The translations under genes were made by a program, and so were the position numbers. Below are positions 8,225-39,831 of a stretch of DNA of 46,034 nucleotides, one piece after another (within the stretch, counting starts at the first letter, position 1; each line of letters begins with the position of its first letter). Below the pieces are notes generated by a model. That model worked only from the letters and a program-made list of their open reading frames with translations, had not been told where the DNA came from and made no database searches. Source of the DNA: Candidatus Raymondbacteria bacterium RIFOXYA2_FULL_49_16 (GTDB taxonomy: Bacteria; Fibrobacterota; OXYB2-FULL-49-7; XYB2-FULL-49-35); assembly GCA_001789205.1 (NCBI GenBank), contig MFYT01000061.1, positions 2,480 to 48,513 on the forward strand. The letters run 5' to 3'.

Positions 8225-8240
8225 CGGCACATGGCTTGCT
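8225..8240 (+). promoter_or_regulatory. sigma-54 (-24/-12) promoter of the flgJNKL operon
   Basis: CGGCACATGGCTTGCT has GG at 8226-8227 and GC at 8238-8239 with ten bases between, matching the -24/-12 consensus (GGCAC...TTGC). Transcription would start near 8251, ~27 nt before the flgJ ATG. A sigma-54 activator is encoded 10 kb downstream. Confidence 0.6.
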
Positions 8241-8277
8241 TTTATCACTCTCTGAGGAAAAGAAAGGTTTGCTTAAT

Positions 8278-9120
8278 ATGTTAAATGAAAGTGGCGCAAT
8301 AAGCACTACAATATTAAATGATCTGCCGGGAAAAAAGGCCGCTGGAAGGTATTCCGACAAAGAGGTCCGGCAGGTTGCGGAACAGTTTGAAGCCATGTTC
8401 ACCACCTATATGCTGAAAGTGATGAACGAATCCATTGACCGGTCAGATCTGGTAAAACGAAACATGGGTGAGGAGATATTTCAGGACCTTTTAAACGAGC
8501 AATATGCGAACAAAGCGGCAAAGACCGGGCAAATGGGCCTTTCCAATCTCATATACAAGACACTGAAAAACGATCCCAGTCAGATAGCTGGTTTTCAAAA
8601 CAAGATCCGCGAACACAATGCCCAGAAACATCTGACCCCCGAGATCATGCAGGCCACTGCCGGGAATTTTGGAGGCCTTGAAAAATACATGAGGAAAAAC
8701 GAGGATGTTGAAACACGCATGAAACGGATCGACAATACCATAAACGCCATTGCAAAACACCATGGCGTTGATCCTGCCTTGGTAAAAGCTGTCATCCGGC
8801 AGGAGTCCCAGGGCGATCCTTACGCAGTCTCTCCAAAAGGCGCAAAAGGACTCATGCAGCTTATGGATTCGACCGCTACCGAGTATGGTGTGGGCAATGT
8901 ATACAACAGCAGCGAAAATATCAACGGCGGAACGCGCTATCTGAAGCAGCTTATTGACCAGTACAACGGCGATCTTGAACGCGCTCTTGCCGCTTACAAT
9001 GCCGGTCCTGACGCGGTCAGGGAATACAACGGTGTGCCTCCTTTTCCCGAAACGGAAAATTATGTAAAACGCGTCCTGGAATACATGAATGCATGTAAAG
9101 CAGGACAAAACCAAGGATAA
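8278..9120 (+). CDS. flgJ: flagellar rod-binding protein FlgJ with lytic transglycosylase domain
   Basis: 280 aa from the ATG at 8278; an in-frame TTG at 8236 lies inside the sigma-54 promoter and is rejected. Residues ~25-90 are the rod-binding domain (QVAEQFEAMFTTYMLKVMNES, then LLNEQYANKAA). Residues ~155-275 are an SLT-type lytic transglycosylase: IAKHHGVDPALVKAVIRQES with catalytic Glu176, GAKGLMQLM, NGGTRYLKQLI, ALAAYNAGP. In the model enterobacteria the second domain is a beta-N-acetylglucosaminidase instead; both types cut peptidoglycan so the rod can pass through the periplasm. First gene of the operon flgJ-flgN-flgK-flgL. Confidence 0.88.
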   Translation: MLNESGAISTTILNDLPGKKAAGRYSDKEVRQVAEQFEAMFTTYMLKVMNESIDRSDLVKRNMGEEIFQDLLNEQYANKAAKTGQMGLSNLIYKTLKNDPSQIAGFQNKIREHNAQKHLTPEIMQATAGNFGGLEKYMRKNEDVETRMKRIDNTINAIAKHHGVDPALVKAVIRQESQGDPYAVSPKGAKGLMQLMDSTATEYGVGNVYNSSENINGGTRYLKQLIDQYNGDLERALAAYNAGPDAVREYNGVPPFPETENYVKRVLEYMNACKAGQNQG

Positions 9121-9647: not shown

Positions 9648-11645
9648 ATGGGACTTATTGAAGCAATGAACACCGGTGTACGGGGCCTTGCGGCCTCGCA
9701 GCTGGCGCTCGATATCACATCGCAGAACATCTCAAACGCCAATACCGAAGGATATTCGCGCAAACGGCTCACTCTGGAAAGCGCCTATCGGGCTGATCCG
9801 CAGTTTGGCCAAATGGGTTTTGGCGTTGAAATCACCAATGTTACCCGCATCAGGGACTTTTTCATAGACCAGCAGATCAACAACCAGAACAGCCAATGGG
9901 CATATTATAACGAATTGAACTCCACCCTAACGCGTGTGGAGAACATCTTCGGCGAACCTTCTGATACGGCCCTTAGCACAGTTCTCGATAAATTTTGGGA
10001 CGCCTGGGGTGATCTTGCCAATAATCCGGACAGTATTGCGGCCCGCGACGTGGTCAAAGCGACCACGCAGGTGCTTGTGGATACCATGCACAATATCAGC
10101 GGTGAAATCCGGTCGTTGCGCGATGACAAGAACGACAATATCACGGTCACGGTGAACCAGATAAACTCCTATCTCAAACAGATTTATGAATTGAACCGCG
10201 AGATAAGCCTGTCCGAAACAGGGAGCGGAAAAATAGCCAATGATTCGCGCGATGCGCGCGATCTTGCCGTTAAAAACCTATCGGAACTCATCAATGTCAC
10301 AACCGAGGACAATGGTGATGGTTCCATCAGCGTACTCACCAATGGCAACATGCTTGTGTCCCGTTCGGGTTATACGCCCTTGGAAACGACCACGGTTTCC
10401 TATACGAGGCCCGATGGCTCAAGTTATTCCGATTTGGGTGTCCGGTATTCGACAACCAAAGATCCCTATATACCATGGTCAGGCAAACTCAAAGGTATCC
10501 TTGAATCGCGCGATGAAGTGATTCCTTATTACGAAGACAAACTCGATGAAATTGCCAATACTCTTGTTGAACAGGTCAATACGCTGCACCGCCAGGGATA
10601 TACCTTGAATGGCACTGCGGGAATCGACTTTTTCGCGGTCAATTCTCACGACGAACAGACAGTCCGTCATACAGAGCAGGTCAAGAGCTACACATTTGCC
10701 TATACATCATTAGGTATGCCTTTTATCCAGAATCTGGGCACTCCCTATATTGAAAGTGGTTCAATGGCTGTAACCGACAGCTTGGGCAATGCCTATACAG
10801 AAGGAGTCGATTATACCATTGATTACACATCAGGAACAATCACCCTCCTGCCAGCCGGCGCTTTTTCGGCTTTTGCTCCAGGCACCGAGCCGAATGTCGT
10901 TCTCGCCTATAACTATGAGGTGCAACGCGGCCTGCAGTCGGTGCAACAGACCTACGCTTCAAACATAGAACTCTCCGCGGCAATAATTCAGGACGTTAAA
11001 AATATCGCGGCAGCCGAAGGCCAGACCAACCGGAAATACGCTGATGTTTTTACCGACACAGTGGGTCCCGGCGTGTGGCAATATATTCACCGGGCGCCCG
11101 GACCCGACAACACGCTTGGGACTGCGGATGATACGCGCGAACAAGCGTCCCTGGTTCAGGGCACGGTCAAAATCAAGGTGGGCAATACAACACTTCGCGA
11201 AAATCTGGATTACATTATTGATTATTCCAGCGGTCGCTTTTCGCTACTGAACGGCACATACGCGGGCGCAAACTTTCAGGTAGAGTATTCAGCGTCAGTG
11301 TATGGCAGTGATGGCCGCACTGATAATAAAAATGCCGTTGCCATTGCGGCCCTCAGATACAAGGATCTCATGGCCACCGATGTTGCGGGCATGCCGACTG
11401 CGTCCATCAATATGTTCTATTCCGCCTTTATCGGTGAAATGGGCATACACAAGAACGAGGCCACAGCCAACACCGAATCACGGAAATTTCTGCTCGAACA
11501 GTTCGAGGCGCGGCAGGCTGAAATCGCGGGTGTGTCTCTTGACGAGGAACTCGCCAATCTGGTGAAGTACCAGCATACGTACCAGGCATCGGCGCGGGTC
11601 ATTTCAACAGTTGACAAGATGCTCGACATTCTCATGAATCTGTAA
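9648..11645 (+). CDS. flgK: flagellar hook-associated protein 1 FlgK
   Basis: 665 aa with GGAGAGG upstream. The N-terminal rod/hook motif (GLAASQLALDITSQNISNANTEGYSR) and the C-terminal LANLVKYQHTYQASARVISTVDKML helix are the D0/D1 parts that pack at the hook-filament junction. It is longer than usual (about 450-600 aa). The excess includes two beta-rich inserts, residues ~365-426 (GVDYTIDYTSGTITLL) and ~503-551 (VGNTTLRENLDYIIDYSSG), which resemble each other, an insert in FlgL, and a segment of SprA in this window. They would be surface-exposed in the D2/D3 region. Second of three secreted axial proteins encoded here. Confidence 0.93.
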   Translation: MGLIEAMNTGVRGLAASQLALDITSQNISNANTEGYSRKRLTLESAYRADPQFGQMGFGVEITNVTRIRDFFIDQQINNQNSQWAYYNELNSTLTRVENIFGEPSDTALSTVLDKFWDAWGDLANNPDSIAARDVVKATTQVLVDTMHNISGEIRSLRDDKNDNITVTVNQINSYLKQIYELNREISLSETGSGKIANDSRDARDLAVKNLSELINVTTEDNGDGSISVLTNGNMLVSRSGYTPLETTTVSYTRPDGSSYSDLGVRYSTTKDPYIPWSGKLKGILESRDEVIPYYEDKLDEIANTLVEQVNTLHRQGYTLNGTAGIDFFAVNSHDEQTVRHTEQVKSYTFAYTSLGMPFIQNLGTPYIESGSMAVTDSLGNAYTEGVDYTIDYTSGTITLLPAGAFSAFAPGTEPNVVLAYNYEVQRGLQSVQQTYASNIELSAAIIQDVKNIAAAEGQTNRKYADVFTDTVGPGVWQYIHRAPGPDNTLGTADDTREQASLVQGTVKIKVGNTTLRENLDYIIDYSSGRFSLLNGTYAGANFQVEYSASVYGSDGRTDNKNAVAIAALRYKDLMATDVAGMPTASINMFYSAFIGEMGIHKNEATANTESRKFLLEQFEARQAEIAGVSLDEELANLVKYQHTYQASARVISTVDKMLDILMNL

Positions 11646-11660
11646 CAAGGAGGTATTCAT

Positions 11661-12845
11661 ATGATGCGTGTAACATTCACCCAGATCAACGACAATGTCC
11701 AGCGTAATCTGGCGAGCAACTACGCTCAATTGGCAAAGCTGCAGGAACAGCTTAGTTCGGGCAGGAGGCTGAACCGGCCATCTGACGATCCCATTGACAT
11801 GAAAAACAATGTGAACCTGAAGGCGGAATTGGCCCAGGGAACGCAGTATCACCGGAATATCGAAGACGGACTCGCGTGGATGAACATGACCGAAGTGGCG
11901 CTTACGGACATGAACGAGCTTATGCAGCGGTTGCGCGAACAGGCTGTGTATGCAGGCAATGATACTATGACCGGCACTGACCGCCAGTATATCGCGGCTG
12001 AGGTGGAACAACTCCTCAGGCAGGTGGTAAGCCTCACGAATTCATCCTACAAGGGCAACTTTCTCTTTGGCGGTACCAATGGCGACAAGCAGGTCTATGA
12101 ATACACAACAGGCACTACCTTTTCATTTGATAACAGCACACCGGCAACTACCTTGGGCGCAGTGGGAACAACCAATACAATGGTCACCTATTCCAACCGG
12201 GAATACTACCAGTACCAGCGGCTCGATCCCAATACAGTATCAGTGGTCATTGACCCTGCGGGCGCGGGAACACGCGCAATCGAAGGCCAGGATTTCACTG
12301 TTGATTATGCCAATGGAACCATTACCGCCATTGCAGGCGGCCAGCTCGATTTTACTCTTGCGCCGCCGCCTCCTCCGACTGTGGCGGTCACCTTCAGTCA
12401 CTATAACAAGGTAAACAGAGAAAATTCCAGTTCCATCATGCGTGAAATAGAGGAAGGGGTCTCGACCCGGATCAATATCTCGGCAGATGAAGCCTTTGAT
12501 GACACTCAGAGCGGCAGAGAACTCATTGGTATTATTCTCAATTTCAAAGACGGTCTTTTAAAGAACAATGGAACTGTTATAAATGATTCCATCACTGAGA
12601 TGGACCGGATTTTTGAGAATATCAGGGCAGCTCAAAGCACCAATGGTGCGCGTATCAATCGTTTTGAACTTACTCGCGATCGCAATGAGAGCCGGGAAAT
12701 TGAAGTGACCAGGCTCCAAGGAGAACTGGAAGACCTTGATTTTGCTGAGGCTATCATGCAATTCTCCATGAGTGAAAATATCTATAATGCCTCGCTTCGG
12801 GCAGGGGCAAAGGTCATACTTCCAACCCTCGGGGATTTCATATGA
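11661..12845 (+). CDS. flgL: flagellar hook-associated protein 3 FlgL
   Basis: 394 aa, preceded by AAGGAGG; the start may be the first or second ATG (11661 or 11664). The flagellin-like N-terminus (LAKLQEQLSSGRRLNRPSDD) and C-terminal helix (EDLDFAEAIMQFSMSENIYNASL) form the D0/D1 bundle. It is longer than a typical FlgL (~300 aa) because of an insert at residues ~188-250 that includes GQDFTVDYANGTIT and a run of prolines (APPPPP), related to the FlgK inserts. It joins FlgK to the filament. Last gene of the operon; a weak hairpin (TTGCC/GGCAA, 12865-12883) follows. Confidence 0.92.
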   Translation: MMRVTFTQINDNVQRNLASNYAQLAKLQEQLSSGRRLNRPSDDPIDMKNNVNLKAELAQGTQYHRNIEDGLAWMNMTEVALTDMNELMQRLREQAVYAGNDTMTGTDRQYIAAEVEQLLRQVVSLTNSSYKGNFLFGGTNGDKQVYEYTTGTTFSFDNSTPATTLGAVGTTNTMVTYSNREYYQYQRLDPNTVSVVIDPAGAGTRAIEGQDFTVDYANGTITAIAGGQLDFTLAPPPPPTVAVTFSHYNKVNRENSSSIMREIEEGVSTRINISADEAFDDTQSGRELIGIILNFKDGLLKNNGTVINDSITEMDRIFENIRAAQSTNGARINRFELTRDRNESREIEVTRLQGELEDLDFAEAIMQFSMSENIYNASLRAGAKVILPTLGDFI

Positions 12846-13046: not shown

Positions 13047-13889
13047 ATGCCGAGAATTAATCACAACATACCGGCGATGATCACCGGTTCAGCTCTCAGG
13101 CATGTAAACAGGCAGATGGCCACTTCGCTCGAAAGGCTCTCTACAGGTTTACGGATAAACCGTGCGAGCGATGACGCAGCAGGTCTTTCAGTGTCAGAAT
13201 CATTGCGTACCCAGGTACGCGGCACTGCAATGGCCAACAGGAACGCGAACGACGGTATCGCGCTTCTGAGAATTGCGGAAGGAGCGGCCAATGAAATATC
13301 GGCCATGCTTCAGCGTATGCGCGAATTGGCTGTCCAGTCGGACAACGATACGCTTATCACTGTTGACAGGGGATACCTCAACCTGGAATACCAGGCGCTA
13401 ATGGAGGAAATCACCCGTATCTCCGCGGCTGCCCAGTACAACAGCCAGACCCTCATCTATGGCGATGGGTTCGGCGTGTCAGGCGGGAATTCATCTATTC
13501 TCCATATTGGGGCGAACAACCTCAATGGCGTGGACCGCCTTTCGGTCACTATTACCCCGGCTTCCGCGGGCGCCATTGGCCTCACAGGCTCCAGCATTGG
13601 TTCGAACTCGGCCGCGCTTGCAGCCATCTTCAGCCTTGATAACGCCATTCATTCGGTCAATGCCATGCGCGCTAATCTCGGCGCCTATATAAACAGGCTC
13701 GAACACGCGGTAACAAGTCTCGACAACCAGGAAGAGAACATGCAGGCCGCTGAATCGACCATCAGAGATGTTGATTTTGCCGCAGAGACCAGCGCGTTTG
13801 CCCGCCACCAGATACTCATGCAATCATCGACAGCCATGCTTGCGCAGGCCAACCAGGTACCACAGTCGGTCCTGGCCCTGCTCCAGTAA
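13047..13889 (+). CDS. flagellin
   Basis: 280 aa with an AGGAGGT ribosome binding site. The N-terminal domain (INHNIPAMITGSAL, SLERLSTGLRINRASDDAAGLSVSE) and the C-terminal domain (NMQAAESTIRDVDFAAETSAF, ending QANQVPQSVLALLQ) are canonical D0/D1. The variable middle is short (about 75 residues, with HIGANN as in spirochaete FlaB), so the filament is built mainly from the conserved core. It is transcribed alone from a sigma-54 promoter and closed by a strong terminator, as fits a highly expressed structural gene. Confidence 0.95.
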   Translation: MPRINHNIPAMITGSALRHVNRQMATSLERLSTGLRINRASDDAAGLSVSESLRTQVRGTAMANRNANDGIALLRIAEGAANEISAMLQRMRELAVQSDNDTLITVDRGYLNLEYQALMEEITRISAAAQYNSQTLIYGDGFGVSGGNSSILHIGANNLNGVDRLSVTITPASAGAIGLTGSSIGSNSAALAAIFSLDNAIHSVNAMRANLGAYINRLEHAVTSLDNQEENMQAAESTIRDVDFAAETSAFARHQILMQSSTAMLAQANQVPQSVLALLQ

Positions 13890-33291: not shown

Positions 33292-36200
33292 TTGAAAATT
33301 TCATTTCTCAGCATAGTAGTGGCGGTCTGGTGCGCCGCAATCGTCCATGGCGCTGGTAACACCGGCGTTAGCTACCAGCTTGTCCCCAGCAGGAGCTTTT
33401 ATGCGCCCGTGGACACGGCTTCTTTCCCCAATACACTCACCAACCCGGACCCCGCCTTTCTCGAATTAAAAAGCAAGCAGCTTCGCAAGGAGGTATTCGT
33501 CGACTTTGAGAAAAGACAGGTGGAATTGGTCCGGTACTATCAATCGTCCCTTACTCCGACCATCTATTCGGGCGAAGACTCGGCCATCGCGGGCGTACGT
33601 GTTTGGAGCTACATGTTCATGGAATTGAACGAGTATCTCGAATACAACAATACGCGCCAGCTCGCCGACGCATGGAGAAAAGGCAACCCCTTTTTCGAAC
33701 TAGTGGAAAAGGAGCGCAAGGCTTTCAATGTGCTCGACATCCAGATCCCGGTCAAACTTCCCGCATGGGCGCGCCGCGTGGTGGGTTCAGAGGGGCCGCG
33801 GCTCACTATTTCCGGCATGTTCAAAATAACCATTGGCGGCAACAGCAATTGGACCAAAGGCAGCAACAATATTGACAATCAGAACGAAGGTTTTCCGGAT
33901 ATCTCAGTGAAACAGGACATGAACTTCACCGTGACCGGAAAAATAGGACGCCTTATAAATGTATCCATTTCCACTGACAATACACAGGACATTCAGAGCG
34001 AGTTGAAGAAACAGATGAAGATCCACTACAAGGGTGAAACAGAAAATGAACTCGAAGACGATATTATCCAGGAGATTGAGGCCGGCTATACCAATTTCGC
34101 CATGCCCGGCGCTGAATTCGACGGGTATTCCGAGAGCCATGAAGGACTTTTTGGAATCAAGGCGCGCATGAAATTAGGCGATTTTGAACTCACCACTATT
34201 ATTAGCCAGGAAGAGGGGCAGAACAAGAGCGACACTATCAACCCTTCCAGCGACAAGTCAGCAACCTCGCTGACCGACAAGGAAATTTACTACGACAAAC
34301 TTTTTTTTCTCGACACAAATTATTATTACACCTACTACAAAGAGTATTTCAACCAGCCCCAGCGGACCGTGCCGCGGGTCACCAAAGCCTATGTCCTGAA
34401 AAAGGAATCAACACCCACGTTCGATCAATTCCGTCAGAATCCCACTGAATATCCCAACCATCGCCGCATAGGCGATGGTATATATAAAATCCTGCGCAGC
34501 AATACCAGTGAGGAGCCGGAATACTACCTCGATGAAACACGCGGTTTTATAGCCCTCCAGTTTCCCCTGAGCCAGAAATCCGACCAACTACTCGCCTATT
34601 TCGAAACAGCCTCCTTCAAGAGTTCAGGCACCTATGTATACTATATCGATTCGGAGCACGAAAAAGCGGGAATACCCGAGTCAACCTCAGTTGATGGAAA
34701 CATCATTCATCCCTATAGACTTAGACCGGACAACCCGTCAAAGACCGATCCCACGTGGGTCCTCTCGTGGAAAAACGTGTACGAGCTTGGCGCCATTACC
34801 GTTGAGAACCGCGACAAAGTTTCATTGGCCATGAAGTATATCTACGATAGTCAGAACCCGCGCGAAAAAATAAAGATCAAAGGCAGGGACACGCTGCTCA
34901 CCAGTTTTTTCGGCATTACGGACGCCAATGGCAACCCGTATGTTAAAAACGCGGACATTTTCATGTTTGATTATGGGGTTCTTGCCTTTCCCGCTTTGTG
35001 CGGTCCCACGCCCTTTAACGATCTGGAACGGCTCGCCGGCGATTCCCTGCTTCGCAATCCCAAGATCTACGATCATCTGGCCGAAGACCAGGGCTCAAAT
35101 GAAATATCGGCAATATACCAGATTGAAATACACGCGGTCTCAACCCGGACCAGCTTTTCCCTGAACGCCATCAATATCCTTGAAGGTTCGGAAAAAGTAA
35201 GGATAGGGTCTGCCACATTGACCCGCGATGTGGATTATATCATAAACTATGAAGTGGGCCAGATAACGCTTATTTCAGACCGGGCCATCAATTCCGCGAG
35301 TAAAATATCCGTCGAGTTTGAATATTCCCCCTTTTTCGTTCCTGAGGAAAAGACTTTCATGGCGGCGCGCGCTGAATACAAACTTCCCGCGATTGGCAAG
35401 GAGTCGTTCATTGCGGCGTCAGTGCTCAGGAAGAGTGAGACCTCGCAGGACAAGCGGGCCCAGGTAGGCCGGGAACCCAGCTCAAACATGGTTTTTGACC
35501 TGAACACCAAACTCAACTGGGAACCCGAATGGATGACCAGCGCGGTCAACAATATCCCCCTGATCCGTACCGATGAGAAATCGCAGCTTTCCTTTTCCGC
35601 CGAATATGCCCATAGCATGGTCAATCCCAACCGGAGCGACAGGGCCGAGGCGCTCATCGATGATTTTGAGGACAGCAAGACGCTCTTCTCCATTCCCATC
35701 AGCTATATCAACTGGCACTGGGCAAGCGAACCTCTTGATCCGCGGCCGGATTTCCATCCCGAACTCCAGTGCTGGGGCGGTAATGGCAGGGAGGAAAAGG
35801 GGCCATTGGCTGACGTGGGGTGGTTTTCGTGGTTTTCCAAGGACACGCAGACTGTCTCTATTTGGCCCGGTTCGGCCACCCGGACGGATAAAACAAAATA
35901 TTTGGGCCTGGTTTTACGGCCCCATGCGCGCAGGGCGGGGGCTGAGGGCGCTGCCGCCGCTGGTTCATGGCTCAAAAAAGCCAGCTGGGGCGGCATTATG
36001 TCAAAGCTCGGTTATGGCGTCGCGAGTCAGTTGGACAATGCGCAATATATCGAGATCTGGGTGCGCGTTGCCGACGGCGACCAGGGCGTGCTGCATATCG
36101 ACCTTGGGGAACTGAGCGAAGATTTACGCATTGCCAAAGAGAACTCGGATGATCCTAACGACAGTACGTCGATAGTCATCACGAACGCCAATCCTGACGG

Positions 36201-39200
36201 GAAAATGAACGACGAATGGTACAATCGCGATCTCCAGTCCACGTCCATGACCCCGAGGACCGACCTGGGGCTCGACATGCGCCTTGATCAATACGAGAAA
36301 TTCCTCGCGCCCATGGACTGCGGATTAATCGGCCGCATTTGTTTTGACACAATAACCCCGGCACGCGTTGCCGACCCGGCGGGCGATAATTTCAATTGGA
36401 CCCTTGAAAACAACAATTGGGAAACCTTCAATGGCACGCAGTCCAATGGAAGCGGTGAAAGTTTTGACAGGAACAAGAACCTCTATCCCGACAATGAGGA
36501 CCTCTTTTATGCCAATGGCCAGGTTGACCGGACCAACAAGTATTTTCATTACGAGATCAATCTGCAGAAGAACAGCTCGAGCGAAGAGCCCTACCTGGTG
36601 ACAGAGGACGCGCCCAGGGGAGGGTGGCGGTTGTATAGAATTCCGATCCTGAAACCCAAGTCCGATTCAATCCCTTTTAGAATAAATGATCCGAAGCTTG
36701 TGGACGCAACCGGCATCAGGGTCTGGTACAACGGCATCGAGAAGAGTTCATTCATCCAGATCGCGCGAATGGAGATCGTGGGAAACAAATGGATATCGCG
36801 CGACACAGCCACGGTCATAGCGTCTTCTGATTCCGGGGCGGTTTCCAATCCCGAACCCTCGCACCGGAAAACGCGGGTCTCTGTCGTCAATACGGTCGAT
36901 AACCGGGATGTGTATCAGCGGCCTTCGTTTGTGCCGCGCTACTACGATTCCGAGAACAATATCGAAATACGCGAACAATCGCTCAAAATCGAATACGACT
37001 CTCTTTCGCTCCGCGAACGCGAATCGCGCGCGATCCGTTTTTTTCAACAGCCGCTCGATTTCCGGAACTATAAGAAATTGGTGCTCTACTATCAGTTGCA
37101 CGCCTCTGATGCGCGGAACGGAGAGGTGGCGTTTTTCTTCCGGTTTGGCACCGATTCCCTGAGATATTACGAATACCGCTGCACGCCAACGGTACGCAGC
37201 GGCGCCTCGTGGGACTCCATGGTTGTTGATCTTTCCGAGATAGCGCTTTTAAAACAGTATGAGATAGTGGAACAGAAGAAATTGGTCGCCGAAAAAGGCG
37301 CCCTGCGCGTGGTGGGCAGCCCTACTTTTGCCAATGTCCAGTGGCTGGCCATGGGTTTTGCCATCGATACAACGCGCCCCAATATTGATGGAAACGATTA
37401 TTTCAGCGGAAGTATTTTTGTCAACGACTGCAAACTCACCGAGCCCGAACTGCAAAACGGCAATGCCGCGCGGATGAGCCTTTCATCGAAATTCGCGGAT
37501 TTCATCGACCTTACCTCCGGCGTGTATTACCTGGACGGCAGTTTCCTGAAACTCACGGAAAAACGTCAAGGCGGCGGCGAATCTCAACTGTCGCTTGACG
37601 TGAATTCAACAATCCAGATGAGCAAGTTTGTTCCCGCGAAATGGGGGGTCGCCGTTCCCCTCAACCTGAGCATAAATTCGAGCGTCAAGCGGCCGCGTTT
37701 TATCTCGAATTCCGATGTCTTTCTTTCCGAAGACGGCCTAGGCGACATGGGCCCCAGACTGGTGAACCTCATTACGAGCAGCGAGCTCATGGGGTCCCGG
37801 GCCACCGAGAGCGAACGCTATGAGGAAACGCGCACCCAGCGTTCGATATCAACATCGTACAGCAAAAACAAGTCCTCGGACAATCTCGTGGTAAATCTTC
37901 TGGCCGATCGCATTCGTACCGGCGGGAACCTCTCTGTCATCGACGCCAAGAATGTTCAGAAATACGAAACGAACTATGCCTACAACACCAATCTCACGTA
38001 CGAAGCGCGGGCGGCGGAAGACCGTAAATTCACCCCGTTTAAAAACATAAAAACGACCTTCCTGAACACGCATCTGTCCGATCTTACGCTTTTTTATTAT
38101 CCCAATACATTTAATTTCGAAGTGTACAAGCTGAATTATACCAAGTCGTTTGCCTGGGACCGGACAACACTTGACGCAAAAGAGGGGCGGCCTGTTGCGT
38201 ACCAGCTCAGTATGTCCCACGGGTATACCATGAATTTCAACCTTCTCGAATGGAAACACCTCGACCTCTCCGTGAACCATACTGACGCGGTCACCAGGAA
38301 CCTGAACGATTTTGTCACGCAAAACGATGGTTTGAAGGCAAACGCCTTTTCCGATTATGTGCTCAAATACGACCCCTATTGGAACCTTCAGAAAGGGAAC
38401 GGGCCTGCACGTTTCATTCTCTACGGTGAAACCAGCGATAAGCAGAGTTTTGACTACGCGATTGAACCGAAAATCGTTGAGTGGCTCACCCATGATTTCA
38501 GCTATCGTTCCGATTACAGCCATTCGATCAACAACAAGACCATTGATACGAGCTCGTACAATTATCTGGACATGAACACGTCAACAAATTTCAATACGGG
38601 CGTGGATTGGATGTTCGTTAAGATGTTTGAGGCGGCTGGCAACCTGATTGGGACCGAGAGATCCAAGAGCGTGACAGCCGCCATAAAAAAGCCTTTTGCG
38701 AAGCTGAATTTCAGCAAAATAGGTTTTGATTATTCGGTCGGCGTCAACCGGAGGCTTGGCTTTCTGCGCGATATGCCCCTTACCCCTTCCCAATACCTGC
38801 TGTTCAGGGGTGGGTTACTCGGTCTTTCTCCGTACAATATCATCACCGGGACCGAGGACAAGACCATGTTCGGCGCCTGGAAATACCGTGAAACCACAGC
38901 GGGGGCCAATGGATATTTTGTGCCTGACCAGCAGTCAACCAGCGATGGCAGGGACGTCAACATGACAGCATCGACCAATACAGGCGTCACCCTGCCCTTT
39001 CTTCTGAACATGTCGGTGAACGCGAGCGCGCGCTACACCATGAAATACGGGGAAAAGGCCGGATATGTCACCGTGGATACCACTGTCGAATGGCCCGATA
39101 TTTCCATAAACGCCCGCGTATCCGACATCATGCCCCTTGTTAAAAATCTGCCCATTGCCGGGGAATATACGCAGAGCGCCTCCGTCAACAGCGGTTTTAC

Positions 39201-39831
39201 CTACAAAAAATCGACGAACATCAGGTTCGACAAAGAGAATATTTCCAAACGTTCCGGTGATTTTGAATACCTTTTCGGGATGAGTCCCCTGGTAAGCCTC
39301 GTCATGACTTTCAAAAACGCAATATCGCTGAACAATGGACTCGACTGGTCCCTGAGAAGGAAGTATTCGGATGAATTACTCGGTATGAATGACATGAGCG
39401 AAGGGAATGAAGAGTATTCGTTGAAAGATGCGCTTAAGCTCAATTATACATTCAAGAAGAACCGGACACTCAAACTGCTTCTCTGGGAGATTACCCTCAA
39501 CAACCAGCTCGATATGTTCGCTGGATACGAATATACTAGGAACTGGACCTATAAATGGGACATCCGCTCCTTGGACAGGAAGACCGTTTACCGGACATAC
39601 ACCGAATACATGGATGCAAAGAAGATCGCCCAGCCCGAACTGTTCACTAAAACCATGACCCATGCTATTAACGGAGGATTTAATTATAATATCACTGATA
39701 AAATGAAGTCAGGCGCTGAGCTTGGCTGGAAACGTAAACTTGAAGTGCCCAAAGGAAACCAGGACGACGACGCAAGCAATACGCGTACCTATGACGTGAA
39801 TGTGCAGCTTTGGGTACAATGGAATTTTTAA
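33292..39831 (+). CDS. sprA: SprA-like type 9 secretion / gliding translocon protein
   Basis: 2179 aa from a TTG start with a signal peptide (MKISFLSIVVAVWCAAIVHG). The region from residue ~165 (LTISGMFKITIGGN..., FSV/ISVKQDMNFTVTGKIGRLINVSIST, QMKIHYKGETENELEDDIIQEIEAGYTNFAMPG, LFGIKARMKLGDFELTTI) follows the SprA N-terminal pattern closely. Later parts are strand-rich, ending WVQWNF with a terminal aromatic as in barrel proteins. SprA of Flavobacterium is the very large (~2400 aa) outer-membrane barrel through which type 9 cargo passes, so this is likely the translocon here too. A segment near residues 635-680 (VRIGSATLTRDVDYIINY) matches modules in FlgK and FlgL. No other T9SS gene lies in the window. 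The start codon is uncertain; RNase E/G follows 16 bp later. Confidence 0.88.
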   Translation: MKISFLSIVVAVWCAAIVHGAGNTGVSYQLVPSRSFYAPVDTASFPNTLTNPDPAFLELKSKQLRKEVFVDFEKRQVELVRYYQSSLTPTIYSGEDSAIAGVRVWSYMFMELNEYLEYNNTRQLADAWRKGNPFFELVEKERKAFNVLDIQIPVKLPAWARRVVGSEGPRLTISGMFKITIGGNSNWTKGSNNIDNQNEGFPDISVKQDMNFTVTGKIGRLINVSISTDNTQDIQSELKKQMKIHYKGETENELEDDIIQEIEAGYTNFAMPGAEFDGYSESHEGLFGIKARMKLGDFELTTIISQEEGQNKSDTINPSSDKSATSLTDKEIYYDKLFFLDTNYYYTYYKEYFNQPQRTVPRVTKAYVLKKESTPTFDQFRQNPTEYPNHRRIGDGIYKILRSNTSEEPEYYLDETRGFIALQFPLSQKSDQLLAYFETASFKSSGTYVYYIDSEHEKAGIPESTSVDGNIIHPYRLRPDNPSKTDPTWVLSWKNVYELGAITVENRDKVSLAMKYIYDSQNPREKIKIKGRDTLLTSFFGITDANGNPYVKNADIFMFDYGVLAFPALCGPTPFNDLERLAGDSLLRNPKIYDHLAEDQGSNEISAIYQIEIHAVSTRTSFSLNAINILEGSEKVRIGSATLTRDVDYIINYEVGQITLISDRAINSASKISVEFEYSPFFVPEEKTFMAARAEYKLPAIGKESFIAASVLRKSETSQDKRAQVGREPSSNMVFDLNTKLNWEPEWMTSAVNNIPLIRTDEKSQLSFSAEYAHSMVNPNRSDRAEALIDDFEDSKTLFSIPISYINWHWASEPLDPRPDFHPELQCWGGNGREEKGPLADVGWFSWFSKDTQTVSIWPGSATRTDKTKYLGLVLRPHARRAGAEGAAAAGSWLKKASWGGIMSKLGYGVASQLDNAQYIEIWVRVADGDQGVLHIDLGELSEDLRIAKENSDDPNDSTSIVITNANPDGKMNDEWYNRDLQSTSMTPRTDLGLDMRLDQYEKFLAPMDCGLIGRICFDTITPARVADPAGDNFNWTLENNNWETFNGTQSNGSGESFDRNKNLYPDNEDLFYANGQVDRTNKYFHYEINLQKNSSSEEPYLVTEDAPRGGWRLYRIPILKPKSDSIPFRINDPKLVDATGIRVWYNGIEKSSFIQIARMEIVGNKWISRDTATVIASSDSGAVSNPEPSHRKTRVSVVNTVDNRDVYQRPSFVPRYYDSENNIEIREQSLKIEYDSLSLRERESRAIRFFQQPLDFRNYKKLVLYYQLHASDARNGEVAFFFRFGTDSLRYYEYRCTPTVRSGASWDSMVVDLSEIALLKQYEIVEQKKLVAEKGALRVVGSPTFANVQWLAMGFAIDTTRPNIDGNDYFSGSIFVNDCKLTEPELQNGNAARMSLSSKFADFIDLTSGVYYLDGSFLKLTEKRQGGGESQLSLDVNSTIQMSKFVPAKWGVAVPLNLSINSSVKRPRFISNSDVFLSEDGLGDMGPRLVNLITSSELMGSRATESERYEETRTQRSISTSYSKNKSSDNLVVNLLADRIRTGGNLSVIDAKNVQKYETNYAYNTNLTYEARAAEDRKFTPFKNIKTTFLNTHLSDLTLFYYPNTFNFEVYKLNYTKSFAWDRTTLDAKEGRPVAYQLSMSHGYTMNFNLLEWKHLDLSVNHTDAVTRNLNDFVTQNDGLKANAFSDYVLKYDPYWNLQKGNGPARFILYGETSDKQSFDYAIEPKIVEWLTHDFSYRSDYSHSINNKTIDTSSYNYLDMNTSTNFNTGVDWMFVKMFEAAGNLIGTERSKSVTAAIKKPFAKLNFSKIGFDYSVGVNRRLGFLRDMPLTPSQYLLFRGGLLGLSPYNIITGTEDKTMFGAWKYRETTAGANGYFVPDQQSTSDGRDVNMTASTNTGVTLPFLLNMSVNASARYTMKYGEKAGYVTVDTTVEWPDISINARVSDIMPLVKNLPIAGEYTQSASVNSGFTYKKSTNIRFDKENISKRSGDFEYLFGMSPLVSLVMTFKNAISLNNGLDWSLRRKYSDELLGMNDMSEGNEEYSLKDALKLNYTFKKNRTLKLLLWEITLNNQLDMFAGYEYTRNWTYKWDIRSLDRKTVYRTYTEYMDAKKIAQPELFTKTMTHAINGGFNYNITDKMKSGAELGWKRKLEVPKGNQDDDASNTRTYDVNVQLWVQWNF

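Follow-up and report, generated by a model that had tools for sequence, protein, structure and literature searches.

FlgK and FlgL of a Raymondbacteria flagellum share an old, widely reused beta-strand module with the SprA translocon

The window analyzed here is the whole 46,034-nucleotide stretch of contig MFYT01000061.1 of Candidatus Raymondbacteria bacterium RIFOXYA2_FULL_49_16, a member of the Fibrobacterota. It encodes the hook-associated proteins FlgK and FlgL, a flagellin and, about 20 kb beyond the flagellar genes, the T9SS outer-membrane translocon SprA/Sov, whose gene is flanked by a ribosomal L9 gene and by an RNase E/G-type gene. Segments of about 55 to 65 residues with a common pattern, hereafter called the module, occur twice in FlgK, once in FlgL and once in SprA, all on the plus strand.

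9648-11645, plus strand: flgK, hook-associated protein 1, 665 aa (TIGR02492, E 8.5e-113; PF22638, PF06429)
10737-10931, plus strand: FlgK module copy 1, aa 364-428 (profiles; AF2 strands)
11142-11315, plus strand: FlgK module copy 2, aa 499-556, at the D2 position (profiles; AF2 strands)
11661-12845, plus strand: flgL, hook-associated protein 3, 394 aa (TIGR02550, E 5.7e-69)
12222-12413, plus strand: FlgL module, aa 188-251 (profiles; AF2 strand order)
13047-13889, plus strand: flagellin, 280 aa (PF00669 at 4-139, PF00700 at 197-279)
33292-39831, plus strand: sprA/sov, T9SS outer-membrane translocon, 2179 aa (TIGR04189, E 9.3e-175)
35161-35337, plus strand: SprA module, aa 624-682 (profiles; alignment with 6h3i)

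FlgK scored 377.9 bits against the equivalog model TIGR02492 (cut-off, 170.75), FlgL 233.3 bits against TIGR02550 (cut-off, 127.2) and SprA 583.6 bits against TIGR04189 (cut-off, 200), the last also matching the solved Flavobacterium johnsoniae SprA 6h3i at E 9.9e-35. The core of FlgK comprises aa 1-333 and about 557-665, with the outer part and its two modules in between, and the protein aligns to the solved FlgK 9go6 over residues 7-333 plus the C-terminal part. The FlgL module sits between the F-x-G-T and R-E-I-E-x-G-V stretches of the core. In contrast to FlgK and FlgL with their outer modules, the flagellin, at 280 aa, is by its size an N- and C-terminal core only, and no module was found in the other flagellar proteins of the genome, including the flagellin and the FlgE-like frames. 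The closest named FlgK is that of "Fibrobacteres bacterium MAG-297" (59% identical over the best segment), followed by those of Fibrobacteria, Chitinispirillales and Chitinivibrionales MAGs; a search of named genomes with FlgK alone gave no match, whereas the alignment search did find relatives. Of note, a single frame at positions 8236-9120 of the window combines rod-binding (FlgJ-type) and SLT lytic transglycosylase domains.

The module reads N-I-x-x-G-S-x-x-V ... L-x-E-G-x-D-Y-x-I-D-Y-x-x-G-x-I-x-L-L ... V-x-V-x-Y-x-Y, and a six-frame scan of the window with a profile of the four copies gave no further significant match. Since four segments picked by eye in one window and pooled in one profile are weak proof, the test was repeated with held-out profiles, which were built from copies of other genomes with the window left out, and with reversed sequences as decoys. 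The SprA-only held-out profile detected the window FlgK at E 1.6e-16 (each copy at about 1e-7) and, weakly, FlgL at E 0.014; the FlgK-only profile detected SprA at E 2.3e-10 and FlgL at E 4.4e-6, and the FlgL-only profile detected SprA at E 1.2e-7, the reversed decoys giving E values of about 1 or worse. These matches cover most of the module in both FlgK copies, FlgL and SprA, FlgL being the weakest. Furthermore, the Smith-Waterman score of FlgK copy 2 against SprA is 85, a value reached by none of 20,000 shuffles (maximum, 58), and the local similarity of the two proteins is that of VRIGSATLTRDVDYIINY to IKVGNTTLRENLDYIIDY. The two patterned inserts of FlgK and the one of FlgL that the original prediction had described are thus present, and the same pattern, placed by it near 35190-35335 in SprA, corresponds to the module at 35161-35337 that the held-out profiles cross-detect.

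Corroboration comes from TIGR04189, NCBI's SprA model, which was built by others: it matches the window FlgK at E 4.5e-13 for the whole protein, residues 502-546 aligning with model positions 604-648, and it also matches FlgK and FlgL from numerous further genomes of the phylum at model positions of about 587-658. FlgK was considered as a member of this SprA/Sov family and rejected, as its 47.3 bits and a best stretch of only about 45 positions reflect the shared module. Profile-profile comparison of FlgK with SprA gave, as E values for a single comparison, 9.1e-12 with the whole profiles and 1.2e-6 with the nine DYxIDYxxG columns masked, and the match spans about 47-55 columns with all elements in a consistent order. 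Because the profiles still match with these columns masked, the similarity is not confined to the short motif. No Pfam model matched the module stretch at E 1 (FlgK) or E 5 (SprA segment), and no description of the module in flagella was found in the literature searched. On this sequence evidence, all four segments are homologs, copies of a single module.

AlphaFold (AF2) models were made from the window FlgK and FlgL segments with aligned relatives, and their mean pLDDT values of 70 and 63 are only fair. Confidence is high for the core of FlgK copy 2, with block pLDDT values of about 86-93 (strands at aa 508-511, 522-525, 530-533 and 543-552), and moderate for copy 1, with values mostly of 70-87 (strands at segment residues 45-51, 63-66, 71-74 and 90-99), as well as for the initial part of the FlgL module, with values of 81-87. 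The three flagellar copies share one predicted order: a strand, the D-Y-x-I-D strand, the G-x-I-x-L strand and, after a short helical turn, a long last strand. Foldseek searches of the PDB with the FlgK and FlgL models gave no match at E 0.001 or better (best, 4.5e-3, with TM-scores of 0.2-0.3). The top matches of the FlgK model were phage tailspike TSP4, adhesin Sgo0707, a baseplate protein and the YSD1/Chi tail-tube protein; those of the FlgL model were pilin RrgB and the YSD1 tail tube. The YSD1/Chi tail tube ranked 6, 9 and 10 with one model, with probabilities of 0.54-0.97 yet E values of 0.02-0.03 and low TM-scores, and 2 with the other; as Foldseek and the sequence profiles both point to it, this protein is the best structural lead. 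SprA 6h3i was not among the 50 Foldseek matches listed for either model. By alignment, the window SprA module corresponds to residues 689-750 of 6h3i; the module profile, which included the F. johnsoniae sequence, matched 6h3i at 696-750, and the four-copy profile of the window alone found it at 7e-4.

FlgK was found in 31 of the 61 Fibrobacterota genomes, and all 30 of the FlgK loci read carry the module, in one or two copies, directly before the conserved core stretch G-x-G-D-N-x-N-A, which is the position of the D2 domain; its phylum-wide presence in Fibrobacterota FlgK is confirmed in these sequences. FlgL, which adjoins FlgK, carries it in most cases. The original prediction had described two inserts in FlgK, and both exist, but the second is not particular to this protein; it is a standard outer-domain element of FlgK in the phylum. 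Copy 2 is the phylum-wide copy and copy 1 an extra one, common to the nearest relatives (L012 and L069), while in another lineage (L019 and L070) the extra FlgK copy lies at a site other than that of copy 1. In Chitinispirillales MAGs, FlgL proteins of 570-583 aa contain several module copies or fragments (L071 4767-6515, L079 4176-5885).

FlgK at 62 loci of other groups (Zixibacteria, Firmicutes and others) showed no module match, and the FlgK proteins of sampled Zixibacteria and of many Firmicutes are short and devoid of such an outer domain. The exception is FlgL of an unclassified bacterium (L087), which has the module; another unclassified bacterium, L078, has a Fibrobacterota-like FlgK that carries it as well. 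A canonical feature of FlgK or FlgL of all bacteria is ruled out by these 62 loci, L087 FlgL being the sole exception.

The original prediction also called for a search for other carriers in the lineage, and such carriers exist: all 61 Fibrobacterota genomes have the module in SprA, typically together with one frame of about 950-1,230 aa. In the genome studied here, this is a 1225-aa frame with two module copies (L006 520-3138; G000:C5, ~62.1-63.0 kb), which has no Pfam match and is likely an outer-membrane protein. An NHL-repeat frame lies immediately upstream of it. A module scan covered 22 genomes to which other FlgK loci had led: those of Zixibacteria, Marinimicrobia and similar bacteria have it in SprA-sized frames (about 1,400-2,300 aa) and in frames of ~1.1 kaa, and it is absent from most of the Gram-positive genomes, from an actinobacterium and from a Geobacter. 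A Zixibacteria-like genome encodes a protein of ~280 aa with two tandem modules (L196 1240-2079). Short frames like this one were also seen in related genomes, and they are perhaps phage derived. Taken together, the sequence distribution indicates that the module is an old, widely reused element.

The major tail proteins of Chi-like (Casjensviridae) phages carry the module, as does that of Pseudoalteromonas phage HS6. Chi itself is a phage that attacks flagella.

L200 1102-1878, L201 1117-1884, L202 1132-1881 and L199 ~1381-1800: phage major tail proteins (Casjensviridae and other) and a capsid/protease frame of Virus Rctr41k, all with the module

FlgK copy 1 matches the YSD1/Chi-like tail families at profile E values of 2.6e-6 and 1.7e-6, the former with the phage tail tube model NF052337 over FlgK residues 363-407. 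Whole-family membership of FlgK in phrog_807/NF052337 was rejected (27 bits against a cut-off of 60, in two short stretches). A direct tblastn search of phages with FlgK copy 1 gave no match, and the FlgL copy of L087, used as a query, matched Chi-like tail proteins. In the tail tube of phage YSD1, domain2 is an inserted beta-sandwich that docks on the sheet of the adjacent subunit and enlarges the contact (PMC8718954). Since the module shared by FlgK and SprA is broadly reused, in phage tails among other places, a special link between flagellum and gliding is not needed to explain it. What survives of the original interpretation is the shared module itself, supported by profiles in both directions and by the predicted strand order of the flagellar copies; the specific, unexpected connection between flagellar junction and gliding/T9SS is not supported, as the module also occurs in phage tails, in other outer-membrane proteins and in FlgK and FlgL across the phylum.

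Our current working hypothesis, towards which we lean slightly, is that the module is a mobile beta-sandwich used for packing or decoration, which would have been recruited as the outer domain of FlgK and FlgL, where it would pack against neighbors and stiffen the hook-filament junction. Hook and filament are joined by two rings, FlgK and FlgL. The D2 domains of both are exposed and face outwards in a solved junction (PMC12221982). By analogy with these other FlgK and FlgL proteins, the module, lying between the FlgK core halves where D2 domains sit, would form an outer, solvent-exposed domain. It would consist of a strand, a short edge strand with L-x-E-G at its end, the D-Y-x-I-D-Y strand and, after a tight turn, the G-x-I-x-L-L strand, followed by a short helical turn and the long V-x-V-x-Y-x-Y strand. 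Two adjacent rings bearing the same module, next to a core-only flagellin, might form a collar wider than the filament, and the modules may pack on neighbors within or between the rings, as domain2 of YSD1 does on the next subunit; a packing fold would fit this phage precedent. In SprA, and likewise in the related outer-membrane protein, the module probably caps the extracellular end of a group of strands. Two strands linked by a short turn follow it in SprA, and short turns of outer-membrane barrels are usually periplasmic; we infer an outside location only on the condition that this holds for these turns.

It is also conceivable, if unlikely, that the outer slot of FlgK and FlgL tolerates any compact beta-module and that this family was captured and kept without a strong function. 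The short FlgK proteins of the sampled Zixibacteria and many Firmicutes, which do without such a domain, would agree with this, as would the variation in copy number and site between the window's order and L019/L070 for FlgK and in L071/L079 for FlgL; on the other hand, all FlgK sampled from flagellated Fibrobacterota and the majority of FlgL have retained the module with its sequence pattern conserved, which argues against it. Rather doubtful is surface adhesion, in which the modules would be Ig-like domains that bind ligands or surfaces on the flagellar junction and, through SprA, on the cell surface. The exposed position and the structural and weak sequence likeness to adhesins and pilins (Sgo0707 4igb, RrgB) point in this direction, and Ig-like domains of phage tails have been proposed to touch cell-surface sugars (PMC8718954). 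However, no conserved binding residues were identified, the conserved positions being of turn and core type (D, Y, G), few subunits per flagellum would display the module, and flagellin, present in far more copies, is without it.

Beyond the packing reading that we prefer for the junction, a more speculative extension, to which we give little weight, is that one mobile module family serves as an outer-surface building block of three tube- or pore-forming export machines (the Fibrobacterota hook-filament junction, the T9SS translocon and the tail tubes of Chi-like phages), locking neighbors by lateral packing in each, with phages as possible carriers in view of the grouping of FlgK copy 1 and the FlgL copy with phage copies. 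Convergence of unrelated beta-hairpins on a common D-Y-x-x-D-Y-x-x-G turn motif is quite improbable: the hairpin motif does recur in Ig-like adhesins and in a Paenibacillus protein, but the 47-55 matching columns, the consistent order of all elements and held-out profiles many orders of magnitude away from decoys speak against it, and a pure D-Y-hairpin coincidence was rejected on the E value of 1.2e-6 left after masking.

Module trees are weak, as they rest on 54 usable columns. In the tree without phage and Bacteroidota rows, SprA and the outer-membrane protein stand apart from the flagellar copies (support, 98/88), SprA copies from the phylum fall together with proteins of SprA size from other phyla, and FlgK copy 2 groups with other FlgK. 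When phage copies and Bacteroidota SprA were added, the envelope copies no longer formed one group, and FlgK copy 1, the FlgL copy and L087 FlgL grouped with phage copies (96/88, on only 54 columns). Direct copying of this lineage's SprA module into FlgK, or in the opposite direction, is barely credible despite the striking local similarity given above, because SprA and FlgK copies group separately and a recent exchange in this genome, with FlgK copy 2 and SprA as sisters, was rejected (AU p = 0.018); with only 54 columns, the tree leaves room for a very old single transfer. The safe conclusion from these sequences is that the module family is old and much reused, with no recent swap in this genome, and that the SprA module appears as an old translocon element, found also in related phyla.

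Among flagellar axial proteins, outer domains vary and are seldom of known origin. Here one of them can be traced to a defined family with a phage relative and with SprA as a member of solved structure. This makes the role of the outer domains at the junction testable in a phylum whose flagella have been little studied, and defines a stretch outside the coverage of Pfam. Annotation likewise calls for caution, as short matches to SprA profiles can fall on FlgK or FlgL.

Among known systems, the Ig-like domains of Gram-positive adhesins and pilins have an L-x-E-G-x-D-Y-T stretch (Sgo0707 4igb) and resemble the module in Foldseek as beta-sandwiches (including RrgB 2x9w), but the sequence similarity extends over only ~20 residues and lineage and architecture differ; as the short D-Y hairpin is also found there, part of the module pattern is generic. 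The outer (D2/D3) domains of other FlgK and FlgL proteins (9go6, 4ut1) occupy the same insertion position between the core halves but have no detectable sequence similarity to the module, and module profiles gave no match to solved FlgK or FlgL. The YSD1/Chi-like major tail protein (6xgr, 8vhx; NF052337; phrog_807) likewise has an inserted beta-sandwich outside a tube-forming protein, although its tail-tube core is unrelated to FlgK and FlgL. Finally, the module of the SprA/Sov translocon (TIGR04189; 6h3i, ~690-755) aligns end to end with the FlgK and FlgL copies, being embedded there in a giant outer-membrane beta-barrel protein and, in FlgK and FlgL, forming the outer domain of an axial flagellar protein.
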